Positions 6,051 to 21,588 of a DNA stretch of 29,039 nucleotides are shown here, piece after piece. The position numbers and the translations under genes were made by a program. Each line of letters starts with the position of its first letter. Positions within the stretch are counted from its first letter, which is position 1. Under the pieces are notes generated by a model, which worked only from the letters and a program-made list of their open reading frames with translations, ran no database searches and had not been told where the DNA came from. The DNA lies in the IMG/VR virus record IMGVR_UViG_3300011440_000049, positions 1 to 29,039 of that record; one strand, given 5' to 3'. The DNA comes from a virus.

Positions 6051-6077
6051 CCTACGATTGTTCGGATAGGAATTAGT

Positions 6078-9807: not shown

Positions 9808-9816
9808 GATACCCTC

Positions 9817-10230: not shown

Positions 10231-10254
10231 ATGGGTTCCCCTTGTGAATTGGGG

Positions 10255-10571: not shown

Positions 10572-10634
10572 TTAACCCTCCGTTAACCTTTATATTTCGA
10601 GGCTCCGCGTTAACCCTAATAGACGGTAATTGAA

Positions 10635-10832
10635 TTAATGCCAAGGTATCCCGAAACAATACGTTGAATGGATCAAGTCTACCATTTCGTCCGTCATATT
10701 GTTACAGCCGATAAGCCTACGAGGAATATCCGTATTGCCATGCTTATTCACGACGTAGATACAGCCGCAATCATCCGACGTAACTAGTTCTTTTGAAAGT
10801 CCTTCCCGGACATACGTTTTCTTTTTCGCCAT
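10635..10832 (-). CDS. Small hypothetical protein
   Basis: 65 residues with a very basic start (Met-Ala-Lys-Lys-Lys-Thr) and four scattered Cys. I do not recognise a domain. AGGGGG 5-6 bases before the ATG supports the start. It sits immediately after the terminator of the DUF932-like gene, so its transcription must depend on read-through or on a promoter that I cannot see. Confidence 0.6.
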   Translation of the reverse strand: MAKKKTYVREGLSKELVTSDDCGCIYVVNKHGNTDIPRRLIGCNNMTDEMVDLIHSTYCFGIPWH

Positions 10833-10849
10833 GATAACCCCCTGCCATG

Positions 10850-10880
10850 TAAGAAACCCCGGGGCTATTCACCCCGGGGC
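10850..10880 (-). terminator. Intrinsic terminator after the DUF932-like gene
   Basis: Read on the minus strand: CCCCGGGG, a short loop, CCCCGGGG, then TTTCTT, 13 bases after the stop at 10893. The 8-bp GC-only stem with a T-rich tail is a good Rho-independent terminator. Confidence 0.8.
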
Positions 10881-10892
10881 CTTCGTCGTAGG

Positions 10893-11978
10893 TTAGGCCG
10901 CAAGGGCCATTACATCGCCCGCGATACGCTCGATTGCTACCCTGTCATCCGTCCGGCCAATTCCCCGGGCGTAGGCGGTAGCCGCCGTAGTCACGTCCCA
11001 AAGGGTTTCAATCGGGCGGTTTTCTTCCGCCGTATGCGTCATCTTCAGCAACGGAGCCAAACGCTTGCCGAACCTCTTGGCAAGGAATTCGTCCACGTCG
11101 TCAACCCGCGAAGCCTGAGCCGCCGCCACGCCGTCCGTAATGGATTTGACGGACGAATTGGAATAGGCGTCAAGGGCCGGGAGGATTTCCCCCAACCATC
11201 TATCGGGAGCCGAAACCGTATGCCGTATCTTGATTTCGGAATACTCCGTAGCACCCCAAACAATACGGTTCATACAAACGTAATCGAACAGGAAGGTACC
11301 AAGCCCGAAGGTCTTGTCCCCAACTTCCGAATTCCAAACGAAGAAACCCCGGGCCAAAGACCCCGACGAACCATTGCGCCGGTTTGGGATTTCGATACGA
11401 TTGGTTTCGTCCGCAAGGAATACGAACATATCCCTATCCGAAGCGTACAGCGTCGTATTGGACTTGTCCACAACGACAGCCTTACCGAATTCGCCCGGAA
11501 CCCGCCATGAACCTGTCACGCCGTCTCCGAATTGCCGGACCATTGATCCGACAATATCCGAATTCCAGATACGCCCATAACGCGGGCCGGTTGCGGCGCG
11601 AAGTTCCGCCGAATGTTCGTCATAGACCAGAACGCCAACATCTTCAATGTTGCGTTTGTGCTTCAGGCCATAGTTGATACAGTCCGCCGAAATTTCCGCT
11701 GGAAGGGTCCGAAGGTAGTTGGCCGGGGCTTCCGCCAATTGCGACAGTTGGCCAAAACTCCAGTGTGTCGGGGCATGTTCGATACCCTTGTCCCCCACAA
11801 TCAGGAGGCTCTTATGGTCCTCAGACGGGACAGCTTCGATACGCCGCGAAGATACGACGGTTTCCCGGGAATGATCCCGCTGATTGCCGAAATGCGCCAA
11901 CATCGCTGTCAGCGAAGTAAAGCGTTCGTCGTCCGGTCTTGACGCCCATTGATTGGACGCCTTCATTAACGTAGCCAT
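10893..11978 (-). CDS. DUF932-like phage/plasmid protein
   Basis: 361-residue cytosolic protein that I assign to the DUF932 family, common on phages and plasmids and of unknown biochemical function. Supporting elements are an N-terminal Trp-Ser-Phe-Gly-Gln-Leu-Ser-Gln-Leu segment, a Gly-Pro-Arg-Tyr-Gly-Arg-Ile-Trp-Asn motif near residue 130, a middle region with Gly-Phe-Phe-Val-Trp-Asn-Ser-Glu-Val-Gly, a Cys-Met-Asn-Arg-Ile-Val-Trp-Gly motif near 235, and Ile-Arg-His-Thr shortly after. The ATG has AAAGGA upstream. It has its own promoter at 12.03-12.10 kb with a perfect TTAA-N7-TTAAC site, and its own terminator, so it is a single-gene unit. Confidence 0.75.
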   Translation of the reverse strand: MATLMKASNQWASRPDDERFTSLTAMLAHFGNQRDHSRETVVSSRRIEAVPSEDHKSLLIVGDKGIEHAPTHWSFGQLSQLAEAPANYLRTLPAEISADCINYGLKHKRNIEDVGVLVYDEHSAELRAATGPRYGRIWNSDIVGSMVRQFGDGVTGSWRVPGEFGKAVVVDKSNTTLYASDRDMFVFLADETNRIEIPNRRNGSSGSLARGFFVWNSEVGDKTFGLGTFLFDYVCMNRIVWGATEYSEIKIRHTVSAPDRWLGEILPALDAYSNSSVKSITDGVAAAQASRVDDVDEFLAKRFGKRLAPLLKMTHTAEENRPIETLWDVTTAATAYARGIGRTDDRVAIERIAGDVMALAA

Positions 11979-12029
11979 GTGTAGTCCTTTCGAGGTTGTG
12001 GCGCGGTTCCTAACCGGCCTTACCCCGTC

Positions 12030-12103
12030 AACGTAGGCCCCTCCCGAACCATTGTCAAACCCTAATTTGCAGACGTTGGCATATGGTTAATTTTCCGTTA
12101 ACG
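12030..12103 (-). promoter_or_regulatory. Promoter of the DUF932-like gene with TTAA-N7-TTAAC box
   Basis: TTGACA (12058-12053), 17 bases, TACGTT (12035-12030). Upstream on the minus strand is CGTTAACGGAAAATTAACCA (12103-12084), a perfect TTAA-N7-TTAAC that also reads as the half-site TTAACCAT. The gap from the box to the -35 is 25 bp. Confidence 0.75.
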
Positions 12104-12153
12104 GGAACCGTCAAAAACATGGTTAATAAAATCCGGTTCCGCGTTAGGGTTAC

Positions 12154-12561
12154 TTATCCGTTAAGTTTGAAATATTCTTCAATTGCGGTAACAGCGTCTT
12201 GCCAACTCCAACATAAAACACAACGATAGCCTACGCTTTCAAGTTTATTAAACCACGCAACTTGACTATCCGATATACGCCCCTTACTAGTTTTCATTTC
12301 GATAAACAGCCCGTGATATCCGCCGGAGGGGACGGCTAGGAATACGTCAGGTACGCCCGCCCGAACGCCTTCCGCTTTCAGCTTGTTTGCCACAACCGGG
12401 TCACGCCAACCCCCGTTAGGGATTGCGAACAGGTTACGGAGTTGGGGATATAGCTGGAACTTCGTAGCCGCCCAACAAAATAGGGCAGCTTGTTCGCCGT
12501 GTTCGGTTCCGCTAGACGCCAACTTTTCCGGGGTCACTAAGTTTGATTTTGATTGGTACAT
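12154..12561 (-). CDS. VRR-NUC domain nuclease
   Basis: 135-residue protein of the VRR-NUC family (PD-(D/E)XK superfamily), often stand-alone in phages and thought to cut branched DNA. Motifs in order are an N-terminal Glu-x-x-Glu-Gln-Ala-Ala-Leu-Phe-x-Trp, Ile-Pro-Asn-Gly-Gly-Trp-Arg, Gly-Val-Arg-Ala-Gly-Val-Pro-Asp (metal-binding Asp), Leu-Phe-Ile-Glu-Met-Lys (the E-x-K pair), Lys-Gly-Arg-Ile-Ser-x-x-Gln, and a C-terminal Trp-Gln-Asp-Ala. The ATG at 12561 is chosen because GGAGG lies 9 bases upstream and homology starts just after it; a longer frame to 12651 only overlaps the upstream gene. It overlaps that gene by 50 bases. It is the last gene of the 13.3-kb transcript. Confidence 0.85.
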   Translation of the reverse strand: MYQSKSNLVTPEKLASSGTEHGEQAALFCWAATKFQLYPQLRNLFAIPNGGWRDPVVANKLKAEGVRAGVPDVFLAVPSGGYHGLFIEMKTSKGRISDSQVAWFNKLESVGYRCVLCWSWQDAVTAIEEYFKLNG

Positions 12562-12757
12562 TCGGGGAGGCCTCCGGTTGGGGGTACAGCTTCGCCAAAT
12601 CGTCCAAGGTAAGGTTAGCGTGTTCGTCCGGGAGGGGGTGTACCGCCGCAAGTTCGCCCGTCACGTCTTTGCCCGAACGGGAGCCGGGAGGCCCGTCAGG
12701 CCATAGGGAAGGCCAGCAACGCCCGTTGTACCGAACCCATACGAACGCCCGCCCCAT
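12512..12757 (-). CDS. Small hypothetical protein
   Basis: 81 residues starting Met-Gly-Arg-Ala-Phe-Val-Trp-Val-Arg-Tyr-Asn-Gly and ending in a Lys/Pro-rich tail. I see no known domain. The N-terminal aromatic-rich segment could be a small beta fold. The start at 12757 is chosen on GGGGAGG 9 bases upstream; the frame is open further back but overlaps the preceding gene. It lies between an acidic small gene and the VRR-NUC gene, whose start it overlaps. Confidence 0.6.
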   Translation of the reverse strand: MGRAFVWVRYNGRCWPSLWPDGPPGSRSGKDVTGELAAVHPLPDEHANLTLDDLAKLYPQPEASPNVPIKIKLSDPGKVGV

Positions 12758-12821
12758 GGCCCCTAGCCTCCCCTGTGACAGCCCCAAGCCCGGGAGCATA
12801 GCCCCGGGGCCGGGTAGGCTG

Positions 12822-13010
12822 TCAATCCTCCGTTTCGTCGTCGTCGTCCTGTTCGTCGTCCGATTGTTCCGCTTCCATAGCCGCGTCTTTGATCCGTTCC
12901 GCTTCCGCTTTTTTGCGGAAGGCTGGAAGGGTGCGGTCAAAGTCCGCCGCCCGTCTAGCAGCTTCCTCAATTTCCCAAGCTTCAACTTCGTCCATGAAAC
13001 TTTTCGGCAT
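12822..13010 (-). CDS. Small acidic helical protein
   Basis: 62 residues. The first 50 are Ala/Glu/Arg-rich and probably one long helix; the last 14 are almost all Asp and Glu. No domain is recognised. The start at 13010 is favoured because the region just upstream forms a GC-rich hairpin in non-coding sequence and GGGAACGGAAC precedes the ATG. Further in-frame ATGs upstream (13064, 13079) have no ribosome binding site and overlap the previous gene. Confidence 0.6.
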   Translation of the reverse strand: MPKSFMDEVEAWEIEEAARRAADFDRTLPAFRKKAEAERIKDAAMEAEQSDDEQDDDDETED

Positions 13011-13053
13011 GTTCCGTTCCCATTGTGGGGAAGCCCCCGTAGGGGCCTCCCGG

Positions 13054-13284
13054 TTACGCCGCATGATCCATGAGGCCAACTACGATTTTGTAGCCCCGCC
13101 CCTTGAGTAAAGCCGCCCGGCGGTTCGCTTCCGCCAACGTCAGCCAGTTGATAACCCGGACTTCGCCGTATTGCGTCCGGTAGGCTACGGCGTACACGTC
13201 ATGAGCCGGGGCCGTATGGGAGGCCAACACGTTCCGAAGATCGTTGGGGCCTTGGAAGGGAATAAACGTAACTTTGTCCGTCAT
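13054..13284 (-). CDS. Small hypothetical protein
   Basis: 76 residues with alternating hydrophobic and polar stretches and an Ala-Glu-Ala-Asn-Arg-Arg-Ala helix near the C-terminus. It looks like a compact alpha/beta fold without a known domain. The ATG has GGAGAACGGCA upstream. It is the first gene after the 13.31-13.38-kb promoter and probably co-transcribed with the three genes down to the VRR-NUC nuclease. Confidence 0.65.
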   Translation of the reverse strand: MTDKVTFIPFQGPNDLRNVLASHTAPAHDVYAVAYRTQYGEVRVINWLTLAEANRRAALLKGRGYKIVVGLMDHAA

Positions 13285-13310
13285 TGCCGTTCTCCGTTGC
13301 TGATAGGGGG

Positions 13311-13384
13311 AATATACACCCCCCTATCCGAAAGTCAACTACGATCTTGACCTACGTTGGCCTACGGTTAATTTCGGGTTAACG
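13311..13384 (-). promoter_or_regulatory. Promoter of the VRR-NUC operon with TTAA-N7-TTAAC box
   Basis: TTGACT (13338-13333), 16 bases, TATATT (13316-13311). The upstream element CGTTAACCCGAAATTAACCG (13384-13365) is a perfect TTAA-N7-TTAAC, with a 26-bp gap to the -35. The box contains the stop codon of the preceding gene (13379). CGTAG directly precedes the -35. Confidence 0.8.
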
Positions 13385-13720
13385 CCCCAAATATCCGTAT
13401 TTGAGGCCCCGGAGGTAGCAATGGTAGTCCGGTTCGTCGTTCTCGCAATCCAACGCTTGCGCGTCCCAACGAATGGCGGTAGCCCGGTCAATCCCATGGT
13501 CCGCCTGAAGCTTGGCCATATCGGCCTCGAAAGCCGCCGCCGCCCGGACTTCGCCAGCCCGTTCCGCGTCAATGCTTTCAACGATTGCGTTCTGGAGGTA
13601 GTCCAGTTCCGCGTTCTGTTCGGCCTCAGACATAGCCGCCACATTGCGGATATATTCGCTGGAGGGACGAAACCCGTATGCGTCTTTGTGCATGTCCAAA
13701 AGGCAAGAAAGGTCGTTCAT
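13379..13720 (-). CDS. Conserved small phage protein ('HKDAYGFRP' type)
   Basis: 113 residues. Near the N-terminus it has Leu-Leu-Asp-Met-His-Lys-Asp-Ala-Tyr-Gly-Phe-Arg-Pro-Ser, a signature shared by many small phage proteins of unknown function. The centre is Ala/Glu-rich helix, and the C-terminus has Cys-Tyr-Leu-Arg-Gly-Leu-Lys-Tyr-Gly. The ATG at 13720 has GGGAG upstream. It has its own promoter and is followed directly by the next one, so it is monocistronic. Confidence 0.7.
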   Translation of the reverse strand: MNDLSCLLDMHKDAYGFRPSSEYIRNVAAMSEAEQNAELDYLQNAIVESIDAERAGEVRAAAAFEADMAKLQADHGIDRATAIRWDAQALDCENDEPDYHCYLRGLKYGYLGR

Positions 13721-13749
13721 TTCCGTAACTCCCGTTTGCTGATACGCAC

Positions 13750-13823
13750 AACATACGCCGTTCCCTACGAATGTCAACTACGTCTTTAGGCTACGACGGG
13801 TTACGGTTAATTTTCGGTTAACG
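13750..13823 (-). promoter_or_regulatory. Promoter with TTAA-N7-TTAAC box
   Basis: TTGACA (13777-13772), 16 bases, TATGTT (13755-13750). The box CGTTAACCGAAAATTAACCG (13823-13804) is a perfect TTAA-N7-TTAAC, with a 26-bp gap to the -35. CGTAG directly precedes the -35 and recurs in the spacer. It drives the 13379-13720 gene. Confidence 0.8.
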
Positions 13824-13828
13824 GGAAC

Positions 13829-14047
13829 TTACGGCACATACCAAACAGGATTGCCGTATTCGTCGTTGAACGTTTCAACCCGATACGGAACAATTTTGTA
13901 AGGCTTGTTCCGAACGAAGTAATCTTCCGTACTTTCAATCCAAACCGGATCAAGGATAGCAGACAGCTTGTCAAGAGCCTCCCGGATTTCAGTTTCCGAG
14001 GTTCCAGCCTTGAACACTAACACAGTTCCATTGCGTACCATTGTCAT
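13829..14047 (-). CDS. Small hypothetical protein
   Basis: 72 residues, no recognised domain. It begins Met-Thr-Met-Val-Arg-Asn-Gly-Thr-Val-Leu-Val-Phe-Lys-Ala and has a helix with Glu-Ile-Arg-Glu-Ala-Leu-Asp-Lys-Leu, followed by a Tyr-rich C-terminal half. The ATG directly abuts the preceding stop (TAGATG), so translation is probably coupled. Confidence 0.65.
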   Translation of the reverse strand: MTMVRNGTVLVFKAGTSETEIREALDKLSAILDPVWIESTEDYFVRNKPYKIVPYRVETFNDEYGNPVWYVP

Positions 14048-14368
14048 CTACTCCCCGAAATCGCTATCAGACCAATCGTCTGACATATGGTCCGCAAAGA
14101 CCAGATAGAAGGCCTTCAGCGTAACCGCGCCGTTAGCGCGGAGCATACGGCAGCTTGCGCCCCGGGCGTTTTGGGTTTCAACCCAATTATTCGCCAGCGT
14201 CTTGGCGTGTTCAACGCTTTCCGCGTCCAACTCCAGCCAAGAGCCGTCGTCCGCTTCAACGTGGACGACAGCAACGAAGGGAACGCCCGACGAAGCACGA
14301 ACCGCCCGCCCCGCCTTCGCGGGAGCCGTCAGCAAATCGCCCAACTTGGTAGCAAGAAACTTGGCCAT
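14048..14368 (-). CDS. Small hypothetical protein
   Basis: 106 residues, basic at the N-terminus (Met-Ala-Lys-Phe-Leu-Ala-Thr-Lys) and acidic at the end (Ser-Asp-Asp-Trp-Ser-Asp-Ser-Asp-Phe). A middle segment, Phe-Val-Ala-Val-Val-His-Val-Glu-Ala-Asp-Asp-Gly-Ser-Trp, then a Glu-Ser-Val-Glu-His-Ala-Lys helix, suggests a small beta-alpha fold. No family is recognised. It is first in a two-gene unit under the 14.41-14.48-kb promoter. Confidence 0.65.
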   Translation of the reverse strand: MAKFLATKLGDLLTAPAKAGRAVRASSGVPFVAVVHVEADDGSWLELDAESVEHAKTLANNWVETQNARGASCRMLRANGAVTLKAFYLVFADHMSDDWSDSDFGE

Positions 14369-14413
14369 GTAGGCCTCCTATGTTCGGCGCGGTATTGCGC
14401 CAGCAACTTCGCG

Positions 14414-14478
14414 AATATACGGAGCGTAATTCCGTTTGTCAACTACGCTCCGTACAGACGGTTAATTTTCGGTTAACG
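14414..14478 (-). promoter_or_regulatory. Promoter with TTAA-N7-TTAAC box, short-gap class
   Basis: TTGACA (14442-14437), 17 bases, TATATT (14419-14414). The box CGTTAACCGAAAATTAACCG (14478-14459) is a perfect TTAA-N7-TTAAC with a 16-bp gap to the -35. It drives the 14368 and 14047 genes. Confidence 0.8.
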
Positions 14479-14491
14479 GGAACTTTGCTCG

Positions 14492-14671
14492 TTACTTCGT
14501 CGCCAAGGCGAACTTGGTTTCGCCCATATTACGGAGGCAAGCGTTCATCTTGCGTTGTGAGGCTAGAACCGTCCGGGCTTCAACCGTAGCGATAACTTCG
14601 CCGTTCTTCAGGACTGAAAGACGGGTCTTACCGTTCGCCAGTGTTTCGCGGCTAATGTCGTATTCGTTCAT
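14492..14671 (-). CDS. Small hypothetical protein
   Basis: 59 residues (Met-Asn-Glu-Tyr-Asp-Ile-Ser), with a Gly-Glu-Val-Ile-Ala-Thr-Val-Glu-Ala-Arg strand-turn-strand pattern and a basic helix. No domain is recognised. The ATG at 14671 has GGAG 8 bases upstream; the in-frame codon at 14689 is TTG and is unlikely to be the start. Monocistronic. Confidence 0.6.
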   Translation of the reverse strand: MNEYDISRETLANGKTRLSVLKNGEVIATVEARTVLASQRKMNACLRNMGETKFALATK

Positions 14672-14711
14672 TTCCGTAACTCCGTTCAAGTTGTCCGTTC
14701 CAACAATCCGG

Positions 14712-14786
14712 AATATACGACGGGCCTACGAACAAGTCAACGATAAAAATATGGGGGTGTAATAGACGGTTAATTTTCAGTTAACG
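14712..14786 (-). promoter_or_regulatory. Promoter with TTAA-N7-TTAAC box
   Basis: TTGACT (14740-14735), 17 bases, TATATT (14717-14712). The box CGTTAACTGAAAATTAACCG (14786-14767) is a perfect TTAA-N7-TTAAC with a 26-bp gap to the -35. The box lies in the last codons of the upstream gene. It drives the 14492-14671 gene. Confidence 0.8.
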
Positions 14787-14952
14787 GGAACTTTTGCCGG
14801 ATATCCAGCCGGGAATGGAGTAAGGTTAGCGTCCGGTATTCGTCCCAATCAGTAGCCGTCCGGCCCCGAACCGCCATGACGAACGCCCGCCCGGACCTTG
14901 TGGGGGTACAGGTAACAGACAACCTCCGTTCCGGAATTACTCCGTCCGCCAT
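14770..14952 (-). CDS. Small hypothetical protein
   Basis: 60 residues, basic (Glu-Arg-Arg-Leu-Ser-Val-Thr-Cys ... Arg-Ser-Gly-Arg), no domain recognised. The start at ATG 14952 has GGAG close upstream and overlaps the end of the preceding gene by 16 bases. Its last codons (Phe-Pro-Leu-Thr-Glu-Asn-stop) are encoded by the TTAA-N7-TTAAC box of the next promoter. Confidence 0.6.
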   Translation of the reverse strand: MADGVIPERRLSVTCTPTRSGRAFVMAVRGRTATDWDEYRTLTLLHSRLDIRQKFPLTEN

Positions 14953-15314
14953 GCTCCAGCCCCCACAATTGGGGCCGTAGACCCCTTGGAAGGGGCCGTA
15001 GTCCAGCCGGTTTCGTCTGTGGGAGGTTTTGGGGCCTCCGTAGACCATTGGGAGCCTGTCAACAGCTTGGCCCGTTCCTTGGCCTCCCTGTCCGCCCGGA
15101 CAGCCTCGATTGCCATGGCCTCCCGGAAGGTCACCCGGGAGCCGTCCCCCAAGGGCTTGGCGTTCAGGAAATTGTCCCGGCATACTTGACAGGTTACGTC
15201 CTGAAAGACGGTTGCCAGTTCATTTGCTGGTACGATTTCATCGCACAACGCCATTTGCTTCGTTGTCCCGTGCAAAGGACCATTCCAGAACATTAGTGCC
15301 ATATGTCTAGTCAT
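14937..15314 (-). CDS. Small protein with Cys pair, possible zinc-binding
   Basis: 125 residues. The N-terminal half has Cys25 and then Val-Thr-Cys-Gln-Val-Cys near 41-46, a pattern seen in small phage proteins with a treble-clef-like metal site, although a full set of ligands is not obvious. The C-terminal third is Pro/Thr/Ser-rich and ends Gly-Ala-Gly-Ala-Trp-Arg-Thr-Glu. That resembles the end of the 5321-5968 protein. The ATG (15314) overlaps the preceding stop as ATGA. Function unknown. Confidence 0.65.
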   Translation of the reverse strand: MTRHMALMFWNGPLHGTTKQMALCDEIVPANELATVFQDVTCQVCRDNFLNAKPLGDGSRVTFREAMAIEAVRADREAKERAKLLTGSQWSTEAPKPPTDETGWTTAPSKGSTAPIVGAGAWRTE

Positions 15315-15463
15315 TTCTTTACCCTTTCCTTGATCGTATCTACGTCCCAACCAATGTAACCAATTGAATTGCGTATCCGCTCTAACTTAGCGTCAACGAA
15401 GTACGTAAAACCTGCTAGACACACTAACGCAAAGATATACGCCCGGATTTCAGAGTAGTTCAT
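15311..15463 (-). CDS. 50-residue single-pass membrane protein
   Basis: Short gene linked by ATGA overlaps to both neighbours. The protein starts Met-Asn-Tyr-Ser-Glu-Ile-Arg, has one hydrophobic segment at about residues 8-23, and ends with a charged helix (Lys-Leu-Glu-Arg-Ile-Arg ... Lys-Glu-Arg-Val-Lys-Lys). The topology suits a small holin, spanin or accessory membrane factor, but no family is recognised. The double ATGA overlap makes it very likely real. Confidence 0.7.
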   Translation of the reverse strand: MNYSEIRAYIFALVCLAGFTYFVDAKLERIRNSIGYIGWDVDTIKERVKK

Positions 15464-15750
15464 TTAGTTGTCACCTCTAAGATTGTTGTCATAAGATACG
15501 CCCCTAGGAACGCCGCCGCTAGGCCGGATATTATGGCTGTCCATATCATGTAGTTCTGTATTCGTTGTTCAAGAGCTACGGAGATAGATACGAACAGTAG
15601 ATACGTTACCAGCCCCACTATCCCGGCGGATATCAGCCCGGTTAGCAGGATCAATTGAACGTAGTTCGGAGCCTTGAACACGAACACGAAGGCTCCGATC
15701 ATGATTGATACGGATAAGCCGTAGATTAGTAGTCTACCCGGGTCAATCAT
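15460..15750 (-). CDS. Three-pass small membrane protein, holin-like
   Basis: 96 residues with three predicted transmembrane helices (about 8-27, 31-55, 70-92) and short polar loops, ending Val-Thr-Thr-Lys. Size and topology match class I holins, but no endolysin gene is next to it, so a lysis role is only a suggestion. It could instead be a superinfection-exclusion or signalling membrane protein. The start ATG (15750) overlaps the upstream stop as ATGA, and its own stop overlaps the next start the same way, so the cluster is translationally coupled. Confidence 0.7.
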   Translation of the reverse strand: MIDPGRLLIYGLSVSIMIGAFVFVFKAPNYVQLILLTGLISAGIVGLVTYLLFVSISVALEQRIQNYMIWTAIISGLAAAFLGAYLMTTILEVTTK

Positions 15751-16646
15751 TCCTTGGCCTCCATTGAAGCTTTGATGTGCCGTTCTTTCAGGATGATACC
15801 CTTTTGAATATCGCCCCGCCAGAACTTGGGAACCCAACGTATGAATTCGTCTGTTTGCTCCCGATGATAGGTTCTGAAATGACCTTCAACGGCATGATAG
15901 GCCGGACTTTCCCTGAACCTGTCCCCCACACTAAGGGTAGAATTGGAGTTAGGTTCGTATTTGATCCGGGGCTTATCAATCATGATCGTAACTTGTTTGA
16001 ATTCGATCAACGGACGTTTGCCGCGCCTAGCCCTAGCCTTTTGCAGCTTGTGGGAATGAACAGTCTTTTTAATCTCACATACCTTGGGAATGGACAGGAC
16101 AAACAAACAATCCAAAGCGTCTCTAACGTAAGCCGTTATCGTATCTTCGCTATCCAGCCCATCCGTCCTAGGCCAACCCAAAGTAAGCATTTCAAAACTC
16201 TCTTGCGAAGCATACGGAGGCATATCAACGGCTAGTACGCCGAACGTATGGCAAACAGCGTCGTTGCACATAACGAACGATATCGACAACATTTCGGCTT
16301 TCTTGGCTATTGTCCCATCTTCGTATTTCATTTCAACGTCGCAAGACGCAATATAGACCCCGATCTTGGTCCGCTCTACCGGGGTTAGAATAGGGTACTC
16401 TATCCAAATGGGGTCCGATGGAAGTTGAATGTTTTTAGCCCATTGGGCAGACGTTAAGGCCTTTGCCTTGTAAAGACGTTCCACCGTATCGGAAGGGGAT
16501 TGCTCAAATACATACTTTGAACAATTGTCGTTAGACATTGCCCCCACAATAGACATATGGGCGGACATGATGTGTTTCCGGTTTTCTACGTCCGACATTG
16601 GGGCCGGTTCCCCTATCTCAAGGTAGCGTTGGGCTACTGTAGCCAT
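15747..16646 (-). CDS. Conserved hypothetical phage protein, first gene of the left arm
   Basis: 299-residue soluble protein. No firm family assignment. The C-terminal quarter carries Ala-Val-Glu-Gly-His-Phe-Arg-Thr-Tyr, then Arg-Trp-Val-Pro-Lys-Phe-Trp-Arg-Gly-Asp and Gly-Ile-Ile-Leu-Lys-Glu. That pattern (G-H-F/W-R ... W-V/I-x-x-x-x-R-G ... G) recurs at the end of many phage proteins of unknown function. An Ala-Arg-Ala-Arg-Arg-Gly-Lys-Arg basic patch sits near residue 205. It is first behind the 16.7-kb promoter and probably expressed early. A 15-codon upstream reading frame overlaps its start. Confidence 0.7.
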   Translation of the reverse strand: MATVAQRYLEIGEPAPMSDVENRKHIMSAHMSIVGAMSNDNCSKYVFEQSPSDTVERLYKAKALTSAQWAKNIQLPSDPIWIEYPILTPVERTKIGVYIASCDVEMKYEDGTIAKKAEMLSISFVMCNDAVCHTFGVLAVDMPPYASQESFEMLTLGWPRTDGLDSEDTITAYVRDALDCLFVLSIPKVCEIKKTVHSHKLQKARARRGKRPLIEFKQVTIMIDKPRIKYEPNSNSTLSVGDRFRESPAYHAVEGHFRTYHREQTDEFIRWVPKFWRGDIQKGIILKERHIKASMEAKE

Positions 16647-16681
16647 GTTGTTCCCCCGTGTTCGTAATGGCAGGTTGCCAT
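16634..16681 (-). CDS. Possible 15-residue leader peptide overlapping the next gene's start
   Basis: ATG at 16681 with its own TGTGGGG ribosome binding site encodes MATCHYEHGGTTWLQ and stops at a TAG 10 bases inside the following gene. The following gene's ribosome binding site and start repeat the same GGGGAACAACATGGC sequence. Translation of the leader would bring ribosomes to the second start, or compete with it. No codon bias test is possible at this length. Confidence 0.4.
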   Translation of the reverse strand: MATCHYEHGGTTWLQ

Positions 16682-16711
16682 GTTGTTCCCCACAAGTTGT
16701 TGTAGGATGGG

Positions 16712-16764
16712 AGGCTAGCAGGGTGAAAAGGGTACGTCAAGGTTCAAACGTATATACGGTTAAC
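16712..16764 (-). promoter_or_regulatory. Leftward promoter of the 16.6-kb operon with TTAAC half-box
   Basis: TTGACG (16740-16735), 17 bases, TAGCCT (16717-16712). Upstream is TTAACCG (16763-16757), with a 16-bp gap to the -35. The second TTAA is present but at the wrong distance (N3), so this is a half-site. It drives the genes from 16646 to 14770. Confidence 0.65.
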
Positions 16765-17151
16765 GATTAAATTCAGACGGGGTGGAAATGGGGTAGCCCC
16801 GACGTTTTGAATAAAATTTTAGGGGTAGGTGGGGGGTGGCGTTAACGTTAACGAATTCGCTTTGGGTGTTGTTGTCTATTGATTAAAATTAATTTTAATT
16901 TGAATACTTAACGAGTGTTAGGGTAATTAATTAACGTTAACGGGTATACACCATGTATGTATGTATGTAGGTACAGCCATACGCTTCACATTCATACAAC
17001 CATAGTGTGTTCGCATAACATACATTATGGAATATAAGGCGGTCGCCTTATTATTGCAACCTATGTTAGTATGGTAAGTAGCGGTTAGCACTAACGATTA
17101 GGGTTAATCATGTATACGCTGTATGAATACTATCTATCAGATATCTAGCAC

Positions 17152-17178
17152 CCCACAAGGGGCTAAGCCCTTGTTCTT
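17152..17178. terminator. Small hairpin with T-rich tail
   Basis: CAAGGG-GCTAAG-CCCTTG followed by TTCTT, in the gene-free region. The 6-bp stem and short T run make a weak terminator candidate. No gene directly upstream requires it, so it may act in the control region instead. Confidence 0.35.
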
Positions 17179-17182
17179 ACTT

Positions 17183-17345
17183 AATATCTATTATATCTAT
17201 TATTATCTATTAAAAAAGAGAGTAGTTGGACAGTATAGAGGTGTATAGAAAGGCCGGTTTCCATAGATATCATAGATATTGATTATTATTGTTTAATATC
17301 AATAGCTTACCAATATCTATCGCCCCCTAGATATAATAGATATTG
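17183..17345. repeat. Iteron-like AATATCTAT repeats
   Basis: AATATCTATTATATCT (17183-17198) has an exact inverted copy at 17329-17344. ATAGATAT occurs in tandem at 17263-17280. The last pair forms a 10-bp-arm hairpin. Such clusters usually bind a replication initiator or repressor. Confidence 0.65.
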
Positions 17346-17362
17346 CCTCCCAACAACAACTT

Positions 17363-17414
17363 TTAACCGTATTTACATAGAGTTCTTGACGTATACACTA
17401 TATACCCCTATGAT
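17363..17414 (+). promoter_or_regulatory. Rightward promoter with TTAACCG half-box
   Basis: TTAACCG (17363-17369), 16-bp gap, TTGACG (17386-17391), 17 bases, TATGAT (17409-17414). It drives the first rightward gene. Confidence 0.7.
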
Positions 17415-17454
17415 ACCGCCCCGACTACACAACACTAATTTGTGGGGAAGTAAC

Positions 17455-17646
17455 ATGTCTAAGCTTGTCTTAATAATCAAAGATGAAAACGAAGTTATCT
17501 ACCAACATTGGGAACTAGAGACAGACGAACAAAGTATAGTACGAAACAAAATGAACATATCTAATCTATGGATTAATTACATTTTGCATAAAACTAAGAA
17601 TATGAAATGTATCATTATCGCAGGCAAACCCCCTGTTAACCGATAA
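17455..17646 (+). CDS. Small hypothetical protein, first gene of the right arm
   Basis: 63 residues: Met-Ser-Lys-Leu-Val-Leu-Ile-Ile-Lys-Asp, then a Trp-Glu-Leu-Glu-Thr acidic stretch, and ending Pro-Pro-Val-Asn-Arg. Codon use is more A/T-rich than in the neighbours. The ATG at 17455 has GGGGAAG 5 bases upstream, and its promoter lies 40 bases further upstream, downstream of any earlier in-frame start. Unknown function; by position an immediate-early gene. Confidence 0.6.
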   Translation: MSKLVLIIKDENEVIYQHWELETDEQSIVRNKMNISNLWINYILHKTKNMKCIIIAGKPPVNR

Positions 17647-17707
17647 TTAACCGTCTCCCAACACTCCAATCTTAGAAGTTGACAACACTACATTCCCAAC
17701 GTATATT
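17635..17707 (+). promoter_or_regulatory. Promoter with TTAA-N7-TTAAC box
   Basis: GTTAACCGATAATTAACCG (17635-17653), a perfect TTAA-N7-TTAAC, 25-bp gap, TTGACA (17679-17684), 17 bases, TATATT (17702-17707). The box contains the stop codon of the preceding gene. Confidence 0.8.
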
Positions 17708-17735
17708 GAATGAAGTTGAACAACGGGAGACAGAC

Positions 17736-17918
17736 ATGACCTACTACCAGAACGAAATACAGAAATTCTTTGGTTGCAGCGAAGTTGCAGCTAAGAATAT
17801 TCACCAATTGGTGTGCGTTTCGGGGATTTCGTTTTCGAATTCCTCACAAGAACAGTTGAACCGGGCTTACACCAATGCCCGTGACGCACTTGTATACCTG
17901 AACAAGCTGGAGGATTGA
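17736..17918 (+). CDS. Small hypothetical protein
   Basis: 60 residues, probably all helical (Tyr-Tyr-Gln-Asn-Glu-Ile-Gln-Lys-Phe-Phe-Gly-Cys). The Cys-Ser-Glu-Val-Ala-Ala-Lys-Asn-Ile segment could be a helix-turn-helix, but I cannot assign a family. The start at 17736 is supported by GGGAG 7 bases upstream. Confidence 0.6.
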   Translation: MTYYQNEIQKFFGCSEVAAKNIHQLVCVSGISFSNSSQEQLNRAYTNARDALVYLNKLED

Positions 17919-17921
17919 TAA

Positions 17922-18077
17922 ATGTCTACGGAACTAATCAAACAGCTACAGTCCGAAATTGCGTACTGGATTGTTCGTATCAAGTTAGAGAATGACTGGA
18001 ATACGATTGTCAAGATTGAAACCCATATCATGGCACTAGAACATGAAATCGGAAGATTAGCCCCACATAGGGGCTAG
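17922..18077 (+). CDS. Small helical protein
   Basis: 51 residues (Met-Ser-Thr-Glu-Leu-Ile-Lys-Gln-Leu-Gln), almost entirely one amphipathic helix with Trp16 and Trp26. It starts 4 bases after the preceding stop, with GGAGG overlapping that gene's end as ribosome binding site. Its stop codon lies in the arm of an intrinsic terminator. Unknown function. Confidence 0.6.
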   Translation: MSTELIKQLQSEIAYWIVRIKLENDWNTIVKIETHIMALEHEIGRLAPHRG

Positions 18078-18086
18078 TTTCTTTTT
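18058..18086 (+). terminator. Intrinsic terminator
   Basis: TAGCCCC-ACATA-GGGGCTA followed by GTTTCTTTTT. The stem is perfect at 7 bp, and the 3' arm contains the stop codon of the preceding gene. Confidence 0.8.
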
Positions 18087-18131
18087 AACTCATTATCAAA
18101 GTATTAAGGTTAACGCCACCCCCCAACTTTA

Positions 18132-18184
18132 TTAACCATGATACAAGATAACTATTGACGTATAAATAAGGATATGCCTAGGCT
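18132..18184 (+). promoter_or_regulatory. Promoter with TTAACCAT half-box
   Basis: TTAACCAT (18132-18139), exactly the described CtrA half-site; 16 bp from TTAACCA to TTGACG (18155-18160); 18 bases; TAGGCT (18179-18184). It drives the operon from 18208 to 20025. Confidence 0.65.
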
Positions 18185-18207
18185 GGACCCCCACATAGGA
18201 GGGCAGA

Positions 18208-18477
18208 TTGTTCAAGGACCTAGAGGCCAAGTCCCATAAGTATACTAACATTGAACATAGGGCATACATCAAGTGTGGGGATAAGTTACTACTAATATCC
18301 GTCACAAGTCATTATAAGTCCCATAGAACATACGGCAAAGTTATTTCTAGCTTCTGGAGGCTGAAAGGGGATACAATCAGCCGACTAGCCGCCCAACTGC
18401 TATTCGAGGCCTACCCATCACAAGAGTTTCGCAAATGCAAGCTACTAGCGCCCAACCAATCCATATCAACAACGTAA
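18208..18477 (+). CDS. Small hypothetical protein (TTG start)
   Basis: 89 residues, basic, with a Tyr-Ile-Lys-Cys-Gly-Asp-Lys-Leu-Leu-Leu-Ile-Ser-Val strand region and a Leu-Ala-Ala-Gln-Leu-Leu-Phe-Glu-Ala-Tyr helix. The start is TTG, chosen because an excellent AGGAGGG lies just upstream. Unknown function. Confidence 0.6.
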   Translation: MFKDLEAKSHKYTNIEHRAYIKCGDKLLLISVTSHYKSHRTYGKVISSFWRLKGDTISRLAAQLLFEAYPSQEFRKCKLLAPNQSISTT

Positions 18478-18683
18478 CCTTTCGCTGCTATCATGTCGTA
18501 GGCCTCCGGTTCAAATGGGTTAGTGACGATACAGAACTAGAGGCCTATCGCTACCCCCATTCATTGACGTATCGGGCCGTAGTAAGAGGGGAACTAATCC
18601 AGAAGAAATTTCGTTCAATGCAAGGGGCAATGCGATACGCCGTTGAAGTTCGGCAATCCTATGACGTATGGAAGGAAAGATAA
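18435..18683 (+). CDS. Small hypothetical protein
   Basis: 82 residues, basic, with several Tyr and Arg and a C-terminal helix (Gln-Gly-Ala-Met-Arg-Tyr-Ala-Val-Glu-Val-Arg-Gln-Ser-Tyr). It overlaps the preceding gene by 43 bases and has a weak AAGAG upstream, so the start is less certain. Its TAA overlaps the next ATG (TAATG). Unknown function. Confidence 0.6.
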   Translation: MQATSAQPIHINNVTFRCYHVVGLRFKWVSDDTELEAYRYPHSLTYRAVVRGELIQKKFRSMQGAMRYAVEVRQSYDVWKER

Positions 18684-18949
18684 TGCCTCAAACCCGAACC
18701 CTTAAAACGAATTGTACGAATTGCCAACTTGAACTAGACGGAGCTACACACCCCACAATGGACATTGGACCCAAGCCCGGGGATATATCCGTTTGCGTCT
18801 ATTGCGGTCACGTCATGGCATTTACAGACACTCTTGGATTGCGTGACTTGACAGACGCCGAAATCGTTGCCGTAGCCGGAGACAAGCAATTATTGGAGGC
18901 CCAACATTTCGGGGCGTTCTTCCGCAAGCTGGACAAGGAAAATCAATGA
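18683..18949 (+). CDS. Small zinc-ribbon-like protein
   Basis: 88 residues. Cys-Thr-Asn-Cys (about 11-14) and Cys-Val-Tyr-Cys-Gly (about 38-41) form two CxxC knuckles separated by 23 residues, typical of a rubredoxin-like zinc ribbon. A helix (Leu-Thr-Asp-Ala-Glu-Ile-Val-Ala-Val-Ala-Gly) follows. Such proteins may bind nucleic acid or partner proteins; the target is unknown. The start at 18683 overlaps the preceding stop as TAATG, with AAGGAAAG upstream. Confidence 0.7.
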   Translation: MPQTRTLKTNCTNCQLELDGATHPTMDIGPKPGDISVCVYCGHVMAFTDTLGLRDLTDAEIVAVAGDKQLLEAQHFGAFFRKLDKENQ

Positions 18950-19044
18950 TGCGCCTACGCCCGGGGGTCAAAATGCTACTTGCGGTCATGTTGCTGGAGG
19001 CATGGATTTTAGTTCTAGTTGTGCTATGGTTGCTATTCCACTAA
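18946..19044 (+). CDS. 32-residue single-pass membrane protein
   Basis: Starts in an ATGA overlap with the preceding stop, with AAGGA upstream. Met-Met-Arg-Leu-Arg-Pro-Gly-Val-Lys is followed by a hydrophobic helix to the end (Leu-Val-Leu-Val-Val-Leu-Trp-Leu-Leu-Phe-His). The basic N-terminus suggests the start is cytoplasmic. Possible roles are a small holin or an accessory membrane peptide; nothing in the sequence decides. Confidence 0.55.
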   Translation: MMRLRPGVKMLLAVMLLEAWILVLVVLWLLFH

Positions 19045-19068
19045 CCCCCATCCTGAAAGGATATTCCA

Positions 19069-20025
19069 ATGCTTAACGTTAAAGACTTAGGTGCGAAAGG
19101 CAACGGAACAACGGACGATACAGAAGCACTACAGAACGCAATCAACGGAGACGACAGACACATCTATTTCCCCAAGGGGCGCTATCTCATTTCCAGCCCT
19201 ATCAGCTTTGAAACTCCCAACTTGAACTTTCATTACGAAGGCGAACCCGGGGCCGGTATCGTAGGCAACTTCCCGGACGCATTATTCAAGCGTAGCGTAA
19301 AGTCACCAATCGGAGGTGTTCACGTTATCGAAAAACTGATATTCGAGAACGGGCATAAAGACGGTAAGTGTTTGATGCTTCATTCTTGCGTTACGGCTGA
19401 AGTATCCAATTGTGGGTTTCAAGGTCAATGCAAGGTAGGAATTGAAACGTTCAATTCACAATGTCTTACAATGAATACCTGTTACGTCATCGGTATCAGG
19501 GGTGTTGGGGTTATGGCTGGAAATGCTACAGCCCTATTCAATTGTGATATTACGGGCTGTAACGAAGGGGTACGTCATCAAAACCTAGGCCTTACGGTTA
19601 TGGGCGGTAGGTACGAAGTAAACGGGATTGCGTTTCACTTGGGGCAGAATGAAAAGGGTGAAACGTTCCAATCTACCGGGGCCAAGATTTCGGGCCTATC
19701 CATGGAAAGTAACGACTACGGTATCTATGTTCGGGCCGGGGCCTCCATTGAAATCAGCGGGAATGCAATTACGAACAATACGCCCGATAAACATGCCGGG
19801 CTATACGTCCATGATGGGGAGGAAATCTTGTTCATGGGGAACGGCGTTAGCTCCGGTACCCATCCGTTCCTAGACGCTGCAATCTATCTGAACAACCCGA
19901 AACAATCCGTATTTCTTGCGAACCGTATCAGCGTAGCTAGTGGCAAGGATTGGCGTATGCCCGAAAGTTTGGAGGGGCGTAACTTGTTCTTTGCAGCGAA
20001 CCTACCCCCGGCCCCCGGAGCCTGA
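19069..20025 (+). CDS. Right-handed beta-helix protein, pectate lyase 3 / tailspike type
   Basis: 318 residues. The start Leu-Asn-Val-Lys-Asp-Leu-Gly-Ala-Lys-Gly-Asn-Gly-Thr-Thr-Asp-Asp-Thr-Glu-Ala-Leu is the N-terminal motif of the pectate lyase superfamily 3 fold, found in phage tailspikes and polysaccharide depolymerases. Then come an Ile-Tyr-Phe-Pro-Lys-Gly-Arg-Tyr element and about ten beta-helix turns with Gly/Asn corners. It has no virion-anchoring domain before the fold and no signal peptide, and lies on the plus strand among small genes, away from the fibre cluster. It may attach through another protein or act free after lysis. A strong terminator follows directly. Confidence 0.8.
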   Translation: MLNVKDLGAKGNGTTDDTEALQNAINGDDRHIYFPKGRYLISSPISFETPNLNFHYEGEPGAGIVGNFPDALFKRSVKSPIGGVHVIEKLIFENGHKDGKCLMLHSCVTAEVSNCGFQGQCKVGIETFNSQCLTMNTCYVIGIRGVGVMAGNATALFNCDITGCNEGVRHQNLGLTVMGGRYEVNGIAFHLGQNEKGETFQSTGAKISGLSMESNDYGIYVRAGASIEISGNAITNNTPDKHAGLYVHDGEEILFMGNGVSSGTHPFLDAAIYLNNPKQSVFLANRISVASGKDWRMPESLEGRNLFFAANLPPAPGA

Positions 20026-20044
20026 TATCGGATAGGTTGCGAAG

Positions 20045-20073
20045 CCCCGGGCCACAACCCGGGGTTTTTCTTT
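20045..20073 (+). terminator. Intrinsic terminator after the beta-helix gene
   Basis: CCCCGGG-CCACAA-CCCGGGG followed by TTTTTCTTT; a perfect 7-bp GC stem. Confidence 0.85.
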
Positions 20074-20081
20074 ATCAATTT

Positions 20082-20134
20082 GTTAACCACTATCAATCGT
20101 CGTAGTTGACGAACGTAGCTAGGCCCCGTATATT
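20082..20134 (+). promoter_or_regulatory. Promoter with TTAACCA half-box
   Basis: TTAACCA (20083-20089), with TTAT instead of TTAA seven bases further upstream; 16-bp gap; TTGACG (20106-20111); 17 bases; TATATT (20129-20134). CGTAG directly precedes the -35 and recurs in the spacer. Confidence 0.8.
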
Positions 20135-20180
20135 CTAATTCATGAGCAACGGGGAATGGTCCCCATAGACGGAGGCTCTA

Positions 20181-20465
20181 ATGAACTCTCAAATCGTAGC
20201 GAACGTCAACGGACGGGACGTAACCCGGGGCGAACTTTCGGAGGCTTTCAACTTGGTTGTTAACAAGACCAATTGGAAGTATCCAGTTGACGCCCGGGTT
20301 ATCTTGACCCCCGAACAGCGCAACTTGGTAACGGAAGCCGTTATCTTCTTTGCCGGATGCGTCCCCACATTCGAACCCCAAGGCCCCGTGTTCGAAAGCT
20401 TCAATCAGCTTGTTTGCGAATACCGGGTTAGGGCAGTTGGCTACTACAATGCGGTAGGGGCCTAG
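20181..20465 (+). CDS. Small hypothetical protein
   Basis: 94 residues starting Met-Asn-Ser-Gln-Ile-Val-Ala-Asn-Val-Asn-Gly-Arg-Asp-Val-Thr, with a Phe-Asn-Leu-Val-Val-Asn-Lys-Thr-Asn-Trp-Lys segment. The order (N-G-R-x-V-T ... F-x-x-V ... N-W-K) recurs in small phage proteins; function unknown. GGAGG precedes the ATG by 6 bases. The opposite strand is also open here but lacks a ribosome binding site. Confidence 0.7.
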   Translation: MNSQIVANVNGRDVTRGELSEAFNLVVNKTNWKYPVDARVILTPEQRNLVTEAVIFFAGCVPTFEPQGPVFESFNQLVCEYRVRAVGYYNAVGA

Positions 20466-20469
20466 GACC

Positions 20470-20724
20470 ATGGCAAAGCCTCCGGGCTACGACGTTAAAA
20501 TTCTTACCCTGATACGGGATACGGAACTAGGGGAAATTCGGGTCACGAATTATTCTACCCCTACGTCCCAACTCTACCGGGTCACGGCGTTTATTCCGGG
20601 CTACGCCTTGTTAGGCCCCGGTATTCCGGATTTAGAGAAATGGTGCGATACGCTGCTACTTGCCATAGATACGTTTGGGAGGTACGCTGATACCGCCCGC
20701 AAACAGGGTTGGAGTTCCCATTAA
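20470..20724 (+). CDS. Small hypothetical protein
   Basis: 84 residues, with strands Val-Lys-Ile-Leu-Thr-Leu-Ile and Gly-Glu-Ile-Arg-Val-Thr-Asn-Tyr in the first half and a helix Asp-Leu-Glu-Lys-Trp-Cys-Asp-Thr-Leu-Leu-Leu in the second. No family recognised. It starts 4 bases after the preceding gene and shares its promoter. Confidence 0.65.
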   Translation: MAKPPGYDVKILTLIRDTELGEIRVTNYSTPTSQLYRVTAFIPGYALLGPGIPDLEKWCDTLLLAIDTFGRYADTARKQGWSSH

Positions 20725-20793
20725 CGGTTTGTTTACTATACGCCAACGTCCCCCATTTTCGTAGTTGACTATCGTAGGTCCGTCGTCTATATT
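20721..20793 (+). promoter_or_regulatory. Promoter with a degenerate TTAAC element
   Basis: TTGACT (20765-20770), 17 bases, TATATT (20788-20793), with CGTAG both before the -35 and in the spacer. The only upstream element is TTAACGG (20721-20727) at a 37-bp gap, over the preceding stop; this is the weakest box of the set. Confidence 0.75.
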
Positions 20794-20840
20794 CCGACTA
20801 TCAGGAACGGGGCAAGGCCCCACAGACAGGAACTACGAAC

Positions 20841-21047
20841 ATGATGGACATTGATACCGCCAAGTCCTACGCCACCCGCGAAAACCTCATGAAAGCTCTT
20901 GAGCGTCTTGGGTTCGCTGATAAGCGCCCGATGGTTGTTCGGAATTCGGAAGGACGTTGGACGGCTATTTTCTCCCTGTCCATGGCCGGGATTGACGGCG
21001 GGTATATCGCCGTGTTTGCGGTTCATGGTTTCAAGACGTTCCAGTAA
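20841..21047 (+). CDS. Conserved small phage protein
   Basis: 68 residues. Thr-Arg-Glu-Asn-Leu-Met-Lys-Ala-Leu-Glu-Arg-Leu-Gly-Phe near the start, then Asn-Ser-Glu-Gly-Arg-Trp-Thr-Ala-Ile-Phe, match a type of small protein frequent in phages of Proteobacteria; function unknown. A second ATG follows directly and could also be used. Monocistronic, with terminator downstream. Confidence 0.65.
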   Translation: MMDIDTAKSYATRENLMKALERLGFADKRPMVVRNSEGRWTAIFSLSMAGIDGGYIAVFAVHGFKTFQ

Positions 21048-21074
21048 TCAACAGAAAGGAAGGTGATAAGGAAC

Positions 21075-21107
21075 AGCCCCGGTAGGTCCCCCCTCCGGGG
21101 CTTTTTC
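21075..21107 (+). terminator. Intrinsic terminator
   Basis: AGCCCCGG, 12-base loop, CCGGGGCT followed by TTTTCG; a perfect 8-bp stem. Confidence 0.8.
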
Positions 21108-21130
21108 GTTGCCCGTATACGATTGATTAA

Positions 21131-21211
21131 GGTTAACGGTTCTTAACCGTATACGGCGAAACTACGTACGTATTCAACGTAGTTGACTATCGTAGGTCCA
21201 GCCCGTATATT
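21131..21211 (+). promoter_or_regulatory. Promoter with a variant TTAA box
   Basis: GGTTAACGGTTCTTAACCG (21131-21149) has TTAA and TTAACC separated by 6 rather than 7 bases, and a 33-bp gap to TTGACT (21183-21188); 17 bases; TATATT (21206-21211). It is off the common spacing. Confidence 0.75.
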
Positions 21212-21245
21212 CTCACTATCGGAACAACGGAACGGAGTTACGGAC

Positions 21246-21536
21246 ATGGCCAAGAAAACTTATACGGTAACTTTCAAGGACGGGGCCACCCATAGCCGCA
21301 AGTCAGAACGGGCGTATACCTACGCCTACAAATATTCGTCATGGTACGAAGCATTTTGCTACGACCCGGAAAACCCGGACGCGGAAATTCCAGTGTTCCA
21401 CCACTATACCAAAGTAGGCTTTGCAGCTACGAAGGAACTTGCCGAAAAAGCCTTGACAACTCGGTTGAACGAAGCCGCTACCGCCCCGGATAGGGTTCAC
21501 GTCATCGGGGGCGAAGTTGCCCCCGTTAACGGATAA
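21246..21536 (+). CDS. Small hypothetical protein
   Basis: 96 residues, basic and Tyr-rich at the start (Lys-Lys-Thr-Tyr-Thr-Val-Thr-Phe-Lys-Asp-Gly-Ala-Thr-His), with a C-terminal helix with Lys-Glu-Leu-Ala-Glu-Lys-Ala-Leu. No family recognised. The ATG at 21246 has GGAG upstream; the frame open before it contains the promoter. The last codons (Pro-Val-Asn-Gly-stop) lie in the next promoter's box. Confidence 0.65.
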   Translation: MAKKTYTVTFKDGATHSRKSERAYTYAYKYSSWYEAFCYDPENPDAEIPVFHHYTKVGFAATKELAEKALTTRLNEAATAPDRVHVIGGEVAPVNG

Positions 21537-21588
21537 TTAACCGTATACTACGGGAGGGGTTGACTATCGTAGGTTCGTGCCGTATATT
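21525..21588 (+). promoter_or_regulatory. Promoter with TTAA-N7-TTAAC box, short-gap class
   Basis: GTTAACGGATAATTAACCG (21525-21543), perfect TTAA-N7-TTAAC, 16-bp gap, TTGACT (21560-21565), 17 bases, TATATT (21583-21588). Confidence 0.8.

Follow-up and report, generated by a model that had tools for sequence, protein, structure and literature searches.

Boxes and promoters in the window

In this study, we analysed the 29,039-base virus record IMGVR_UViG_3300011440_000049, the whole of which is referred to as the window, for boxes of the pattern TTAA-N7-TTAAC, in which an initial annotation had recognized sites of the host cell-cycle regulator CtrA. The genes behind the boxed promoters are small open reading frames (ORFs) of unknown function and one DUF932-like gene. 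The latter has itself no Pfam match at an E value of 0.001, and the label is used because homologous phage genes are annotated in this way and because one ORF in a scan of 74 ORFs matches Pfam DUF932 at an E value of 0.012. All seven elements that had been listed are present, five on the minus strand and two on the plus strand, and the promoter boxes of the window are confined to the region between 12 and 22 kb. One more promoter box, TTAACGGTTCATTAAC, is found elsewhere in G002, a 47,127-base contig (IMG/VR 3300009610_000038) that matches 28.8 kb of the window at >99.9% identity and extends it by about 18 kb.

In all eight perfect-box promoters of G002 the box lies upstream of TTGAC, which is followed by a 16- or 17-base spacer and then TA...T, i.e. 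a full promoter of the sigma-70 type. When spacing is counted as the bases from the box end to the first T of TTGAC, the values in the window are, by position, 27, 28, 28, 18, 28, 27 and 18, and that of the eighth box is 17. The observed spacings of 17/18 and 27/28 differ by one helical turn and, by arithmetic, place the box centres in the window at about −62 or −72 relative to the expected start. In a canonical CtrA promoter the site overlaps the −35 element; here the box is 17–28 bases upstream of TTGAC at eight of the eight promoters. Since the boxes lie away from the usual activating position, these are not ordinary CtrA promoters. The arrangement corresponds instead to that of class I activation, with a site upstream of a complete −35 and −10 and with distances that change in whole-turn steps.

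As in CtrA-regulated phages, multiple TTAA-N7-TTAA(C) sites are present above chance and in promoter regions. The initial annotation had proposed a comparison with shuffled sequence, and in this comparison, which was made with the pattern TTAA-N7-TTAA, eight sites were observed in the window versus 1.16 expected, with a maximum of four in 100 dinucleotide shuffles. The eighth of these sites (10572-10587) sits on an ORF start codon and has no promoter tied to it. The exact half-site TTAACCAT reported at 18132 was confirmed, and further copies are located at 5005 (+), 12126 (−) and 12090 (−), the last being the right half of the box at 12086. The statement that the promoters near 6.03 and 10.27 kb lack the element also holds, as neither has a TTAAC in the 60 bases upstream. 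Less perfect elements are found in the same register: the promoters at 20106 and 20765, which have boxes with one mismatch, show spacings of 18 and 28, and the single-half-site promoters at 17386 and 18155 show a spacing of 18 each.

Spacing statistics, relatives and a second lineage

To score the spacings, a custom fixed promoter score was applied downstream of each TTAA-N7-TTAAC in both orientations, and promoters scoring at least 12 within 0–49 bases were accepted, 12 being our own choice and the single threshold used. Over five phages, 33 of the 42 boxes are in phase (spacing 17, 18, 27, 28, 37 or 38), compared with 11–13% at random positions. The counts per phage, with binomial tails, are 8/10 for G002 (1.4e-6), 2/2 for L051 (0.013), 2/2 for G058 (0.017), 17/23 for G059 (1.1e-11) and 4/5 for Mesorhizobium phage Cp1R7A-A1 (0.0014). 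The set of spacings was derived from the window phage, and therefore G002 is not an independent test; furthermore, boxes of one phage are not independent of each other. The G058 and G059 contigs were found with a pattern limited to spacings of 15–28, which fixes one G058 box and three G059 boxes. L051 came from a terminase search and Cp1R7A-A1 from homology, the spacings of the latter having been seen by eye ahead of the scoring.

The geometry is retained in relatives of the window phage. L051, the terminase of which is 77% identical, has boxes at 27 and 28, and the 48-kb contig G058 has boxes at 28 and 38. At the promoter of the DUF932-like gene, both half-sites and TTGAC are kept in the window phage, L051 and G058, with spacings of 27, 28 and 38. 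Of 72 loci whose terminase identity is below 100%, 49 were searched, and one of these (L051) had a box plus TTGAC.

The same 18/28 rule recurs in a second phage lineage, which is formed by G059 (L277), a 16-kb contig, together with Cp1R7A-A1. In G059, 17 boxes have a promoter at 18 or 28, and 15 of these are on one strand. The boxes in Cp1R7A-A1, which was scored at record positions 2800-13000 only, have spacings of 28, 28, 28 and 18 at a score of at least 12, and one more lies at 28 with a score of 11.5; the box at 3339 can be read in two ways, with a spacing of 28 or with the box itself as the −35. G059 and G002 have only a weak portal match in common (38% over 71 residues). After the Microcystis-assigned phage mentioned below, the terminase and portal of G059 are nearest to those of Cp1R7A-A1 and of Ruegeria, Rhodobacter, Erythrobacter, Citromicrobium and Caulobacter phages. 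The in-phase CtrA-type boxes of G059, of which the 15 on one strand are located upstream of small ORFs, are denser than in the other phages scored.

The sequence of the half-sites is also conserved. Directly after the right TTAAC, 30 of the 33 in-phase boxes have C, and two positions beyond that 32 have T; by manual count, TTAACC-any base-T is present in 30. The C after the first TTAA, a position left free by the search pattern, is found in 31. TTAACCAT, the CtrA half-site, occurs in 14 of the 17 in-phase G059 boxes, and TTAACCGT in 11 of the 12 boxes of G002, L051 and G058. The coordinates of the features in the window are given in Table 1.

Table 1. Boxes, promoters and related elements in the window (spacing in bases, as defined in the text)
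Feature	Position	Strand	Remarks
Box TTAACGGAAAATTAAC	12086-12101	-	27 bases before the -35 of the DUF932-like gene promoter
Promoter TTGACA-17-TACGTT	12030-12058	-	DUF932-like gene 10893-11978
Box TTAACCCGAAATTAAC	13367-13382	-	Spacing 28
Promoter TTGACT-16-TATATT	13311-13338	-	Small ORFs 13054-13284 and 12822-13079
Box TTAACCGAAAATTAAC	13806-13821	-	Spacing 28
Promoter TTGACA-16-TATGTT	13750-13777	-	Small ORF with end at 13379
Box TTAACCGAAAATTAAC	14461-14476	-	Spacing 18
Promoter TTGACA-17-TATATT	14414-14442	-	Small ORFs 14048-14368 and 13829-14047
Box TTAACTGAAAATTAAC	14769-14784	-	Spacing 28; on stop codon of upstream ORF
Promoter TTGACT-17-TATATT	14712-14740	-	Small ORF 14492-14689
Box TTAACCGATAATTAAC	17636-17651	+	Spacing 27; on stop codon of upstream ORF
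Promoter TTGACA-17-TATATT	17679-17707	+	Small ORF with end at 17918
Box TTAACGGATAATTAAC	21526-21541	+	Spacing 18; on stop codon of upstream ORF
Promoter TTGACT-17-TATATT	21560-21588	+	Small ORF with end at 21932
One-mismatch box TTATCAATTTGTTAAC	20072-20087	+	Spacing 18 to promoter at 20106
One-mismatch box TTAACGGTTTGTTTAC	20721-20736	+	Spacing 28 to promoter at 20765; equals phiCbK box TTAACGGTTTGTTAAC except for the mismatch
Single half-site TTAAC	17363-17367	+	Spacing 18 to promoter at 17386
Half-site TTAACCAT	18132-18139	+	Its TTAAC 18 bases before TTGAC at 18155
AT-rich gap between divergent arms	16650-17450		12 TTAAC on both strands; base-shuffle mean 2.8

Host of the window phage

GANTC is the site of the methyltransferase CcrM. 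It occurs once in the window versus 83 times expected from a second-order Markov model (observed/expected 0.01), and once in G002 versus 137 times expected, where no other of the 16 palindromes of that form is nearly as depleted. Similarly low ratios were obtained for the alphaproteobacterial relatives Paracoccus R3 (0.00, whole genome), Sphingomonas Birtae (0.03) and Kimi (0.01; first 40 kb), whereas the first 40 kb of the beta- and gammaproteobacterial relatives gave 0.71 (Variovorax), 0.68 (Stenotrophomonas), 0.67 (Pseudomonas) and 1.12 (E. coli). Elsewhere, the values are 0.98 for Shewanella S0112 and 0.62 for Synechococcus S-ESS1. GATC is also scarce in the window, with 31 sites compared with about 113 by base composition, and both depletions point to avoidance of methylation or restriction sites.

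The DNA polymerase of the window phage is closest to those of Paracoccus R3 and Sphingomonas Birtae, and then to that of a Microcystis-assigned phage, whereas the terminase, portal and primase are closest to those of beta- and gammaproteobacterial phages. Because of this disagreement, gene similarity alone leaves the host unsettled. The near absence of GANTC, as seen in the three alphaproteobacterial relatives and unlike the four beta- and gammaproteobacterial ones, indicates that the host is probably an alphaproteobacterium. The similarities of the terminase, portal and primase speak against such a host, as does the fact that some alphaproteobacterial phages keep GANTC, with ratios, from partial genomes, of 0.37 in Erythrobacter ZS04, 0.51 in Lacusarx, 0.53 in Cp1R7A-A1 and 1.01 in phiCbK. 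The partial genome of G059 has a ratio of 1.06.

Comparison with known CtrA-controlled promoters

CtrA control of phage genes was published in 2022 (Mascolo et al., PMC9437464), and Jorvik is another case (PMC10589892). The closest parallel is provided by Cp1R7A-A1, in which the promoter of gp19 (Cp1R7AA1_019) is shifted by phosphorylated CtrA (CtrA~P), with loss of the main shift on mutation of the site, and, with an almost 2-fold drop in activity in a ctrA-ts strain, is partly CtrA-dependent (PMC9437464). This gene is located at 5370-5834 on the minus strand and, matched by position, has an upstream box at 5921-5936 with a spacing of 28 to TTGCGT-16-TACATT in our own scoring. Cp1R7A-A1 thus resembles the window phage in having TTAAC-N6-TTAAC boxes upstream of small-gene promoters at spacings of 18 and 28, but its −35 elements are of the type TTGC and it is a large phage, grouped with phiCbK (PMC9437464). 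The latter phage has the boxes TTAACGGTTTGTTAAC and TTAACCTCTTGTTAAC, and a near-identical degenerate box is found in the window at 20721. However, the first 10.4 kb of phiCbK contain no promoter scoring at least 12 downstream of the boxes, and by eye the box replaces the −35. The gp5 and gp18 promoters of phiCbK are published as activated by CtrA (PMC9437464). Perfect TTAA-N7-TTAAC boxes were found among 13 named phage records only in Cp1R7A-A1, phiCbK and Shewanella S0112 (one site), and among ten further named phages only in Erythrobacter XM05 and Sphingomonas MMDA13, neither at 18/28.

CtrA-activated promoters of the Caulobacter host share the consensus TTAA-N7-TTAA with the window boxes. 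Their activating sites are located near −35 (PMC4287350, PMC11264516), whereas in the window phage and the related phages a complete −35 is preceded by a site at about −62, −72 or −82. In Rhodobacter sphaeroides, the CtrA site ends 23–24 bases ahead of the start (PMC6180460). The terms spacing, helical, RNA polymerase and bp upstream do not occur in the main text of PMC9437464, and no description of phased upstream CtrA sites was found in the literature searched, although one may exist in supplements or subscription papers. The phased upstream geometry of CtrA-type boxes appears to be new.

Proposed mechanism

The initial annotation had suggested that these operons are switched either by host CtrA or by a phage protein copying its specificity. 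Host CtrA is the best-supported binder, in view of the GANTC avoidance and of the same box and spacing in a CtrA-bound phage promoter. A phage protein is less favoured, as no OmpR-type or helix-turn-helix family was found among the scanned ORFs at E values up to 0.015. The reading as CtrA promoters needs to be qualified on two counts, namely the location of the boxes away from the usual activating position near −35 and the fact that TTAA-N7-TTAA is not diagnostic.

Direct repeats 11 bp apart suit a dimer of the OmpR/PhoB family. We consider it likely that the boxes bind host CtrA~P, or a very close relative from this family, which would activate from class-I-like positions. According to this model, a head-to-tail dimer would read the two TTAAC half-sites, 11 bp apart, and would activate RNA polymerase, perhaps through contact with its alpha subunit, from box centres near −62, −72 or −82 on a single face of the helix, with complete −35 and −10 elements downstream of the activator site. 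Abundant CtrA~P would then lead to more expression of the DUF932-like and small accessory genes, virion genes excepted, and phage gene expression would in this way be linked to the cell cycle. We lean, if only slightly, towards the further idea that two alphaproteobacterial phage lineages, with at most distant portal similarity, independently built promoters in which CtrA acts as a class I activator from the helically phased positions −62, −72 and −82, a mode which would be hardly used at box-plus-TTGAC promoters of the host chromosome and which may keep a basal phage expression that CtrA only boosts. CtrA is currently treated as an activator acting at −35. If a phased upstream mode exists in separate lineages, this would change CtrA site prediction and explain how a published phage promoter works, and a phage could read the cell-cycle or motility state of its host while keeping a complete promoter.

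A number of observations weigh against this model. Apart from the limits given above with the statistics, the host-related counterpoints and the location of the activating Caulobacter sites near −35, half-sites at 35 and 45 put the promoter at 21183 out of phase, and the two G059 boxes on the opposite strand, which are paired with poor −35 elements, may be chance occurrences. The terminase and portal of G059 are closest to those of a Microcystis-assigned phage, and the alphaproteobacterial relatives R3, Birtae, Kimi and Kharn contain no perfect box. Nor is the phasing clear in host genomes: in 385 genomes of the alphaproteobacterial class, taken around a Rhodobacteraceae genome, the arrangement is rare, with 22 matches in 21 genomes, one match coming from the centre genome, itself chosen by a similar pattern, and the spacings are spread, with four of the 22 at 17, 18, 27 or 28 and no clear phasing. 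In a control set of 369 genomes, drawn from the class of a Pasteurellaceae genome, 16 had a match, and in bacterial genome contigs 20 of 122 spacings among the matches listed fall at 17, 18, 27 or 28, compared with a flat expectation of 17. In viruses, a scan for TTAACC-any-T boxes, after merging of near-identical stretches and removal of 12 loci belonging to the species of the window phage, gave 14 of 46 distinct stretches at these four spacings, five of them from G059, L051 and G058. Outside of the named lineages this leaves nine of 41 versus about five expected, and therefore there is no clear enrichment in viruses at large. A broad viral trend, suggested by the first hits, was dropped on the basis of this count and of a scan for TTAAC-N6-TTAAC, in which nine of 119 distinct stretches among the matches listed lie at 17, 18, 27 or 28. 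As the host-genome and viral controls show no clear phasing, it characterizes a few phage lineages rather than TTAAC boxes in general.

Alternative explanations

The probabilities that we attach to the above model and to its alternatives overlap and do not sum to one. The alternative that deserves most attention, though we think it unlikely, is that the boxes are bound by another host regulator of the OmpR/PhoB family, one that recognizes TTAAC direct repeats and activates from these same positions. ArcA, Bacillus PhoP and the cyanobacterial Pho boxes are examples of similar repeat sites. In the TTAAC-N6-TTAAC scan, 73 of the 119 viral stretches among the matches listed are at spacings of 8–11, and therefore this type of box probably serves several regulators; since such repeats occur at other spacings in many viral contigs, TTAA-N7-TTAA alone is not diagnostic. 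This alternative has to be set against the alphaproteobacterial signal from GANTC, the published CtrA-bound phage promoter with the same box and spacing, and the fact that 30 of the 33 boxes read TTAACC and not TTAACA. ArcA was rejected as the binder: on the reverse strand, 12 of the 16 box positions agree with its consensus, but GANTC avoidance indicates an alphaproteobacterial host. In the viral contigs L320-L431, the repeats located 8–11 bases upstream of TTGAC promoters are perhaps sites of a PhoP/PhoB-like regulator.

It is also conceivable, if rather unlikely, that CtrA binds to the boxes yet mainly represses or delays expression. Sites helically phased in front of a complete promoter are a typical trait of class I activation, which would favour activation over repression, and the gp19 promoter, which has the same spacing, is reported to be activated by CtrA (PMC9437464). 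On the other hand, upstream CtrA sites reduce and delay pilA expression in Caulobacter (PMC11264516), which is a further point against our model, and CtrA represses DELTA_120 of the Brevundimonas phage vB_BsubS-Delta (PMC9437464). The latter phage resembles the window phage in having a TTAA-rich gap between divergent gene blocks (16650-17450 in the window), and differs from our proposal for the window phage in that CtrA represses there.

We regard it as improbable that a phage-encoded regulator copying the CtrA site binds the boxes. Many of the phage ORFs have no match to a named family, and one gene of the relative Paracoccus phage R3 (L296:17014-17814) has the annotation of a CzcR-like response regulator. 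However, 74 ORFs of the near-complete genome gave no response-regulator or helix-turn-helix Pfam family at E values up to 0.015 (best 25 of 36 families; scan without the collagen-like tail protein and some short ORFs), ten larger phage proteins gave none at E values up to 0.001, and the identical geometry is present in another lineage.

Finally, it is very improbable that the boxes are UP-element-like A/T stretches or remnants of duplicated promoter cassettes with no specific binder: some promoters are alike around the box (families D9, D14 and D15), but the DNA between box and −35 varies while half-sites and spacing persist and the spacing shifts by 10 bp. Conservation of the phasing and of the half-site C, which 31 of 33 in-phase boxes have, led us to reject UP elements.

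Other observations

The 0.8-kb gap at 16650-17450 may be a control or replication-origin region. Erythrobacter phage XM05 (L462, L464 and L468) contains clusters of TTAAGGTTAACG-type sites and, by eye, half-sites TTAACCATCAAA about 20 and 30–31 bases upstream of TTGA/TTGC stretches. The collagen-like tail protein of the window phage (6078-9476, 1132 residues) contains a Gly-X-Y stretch, and four imperfect repeats of 171 bases are present.

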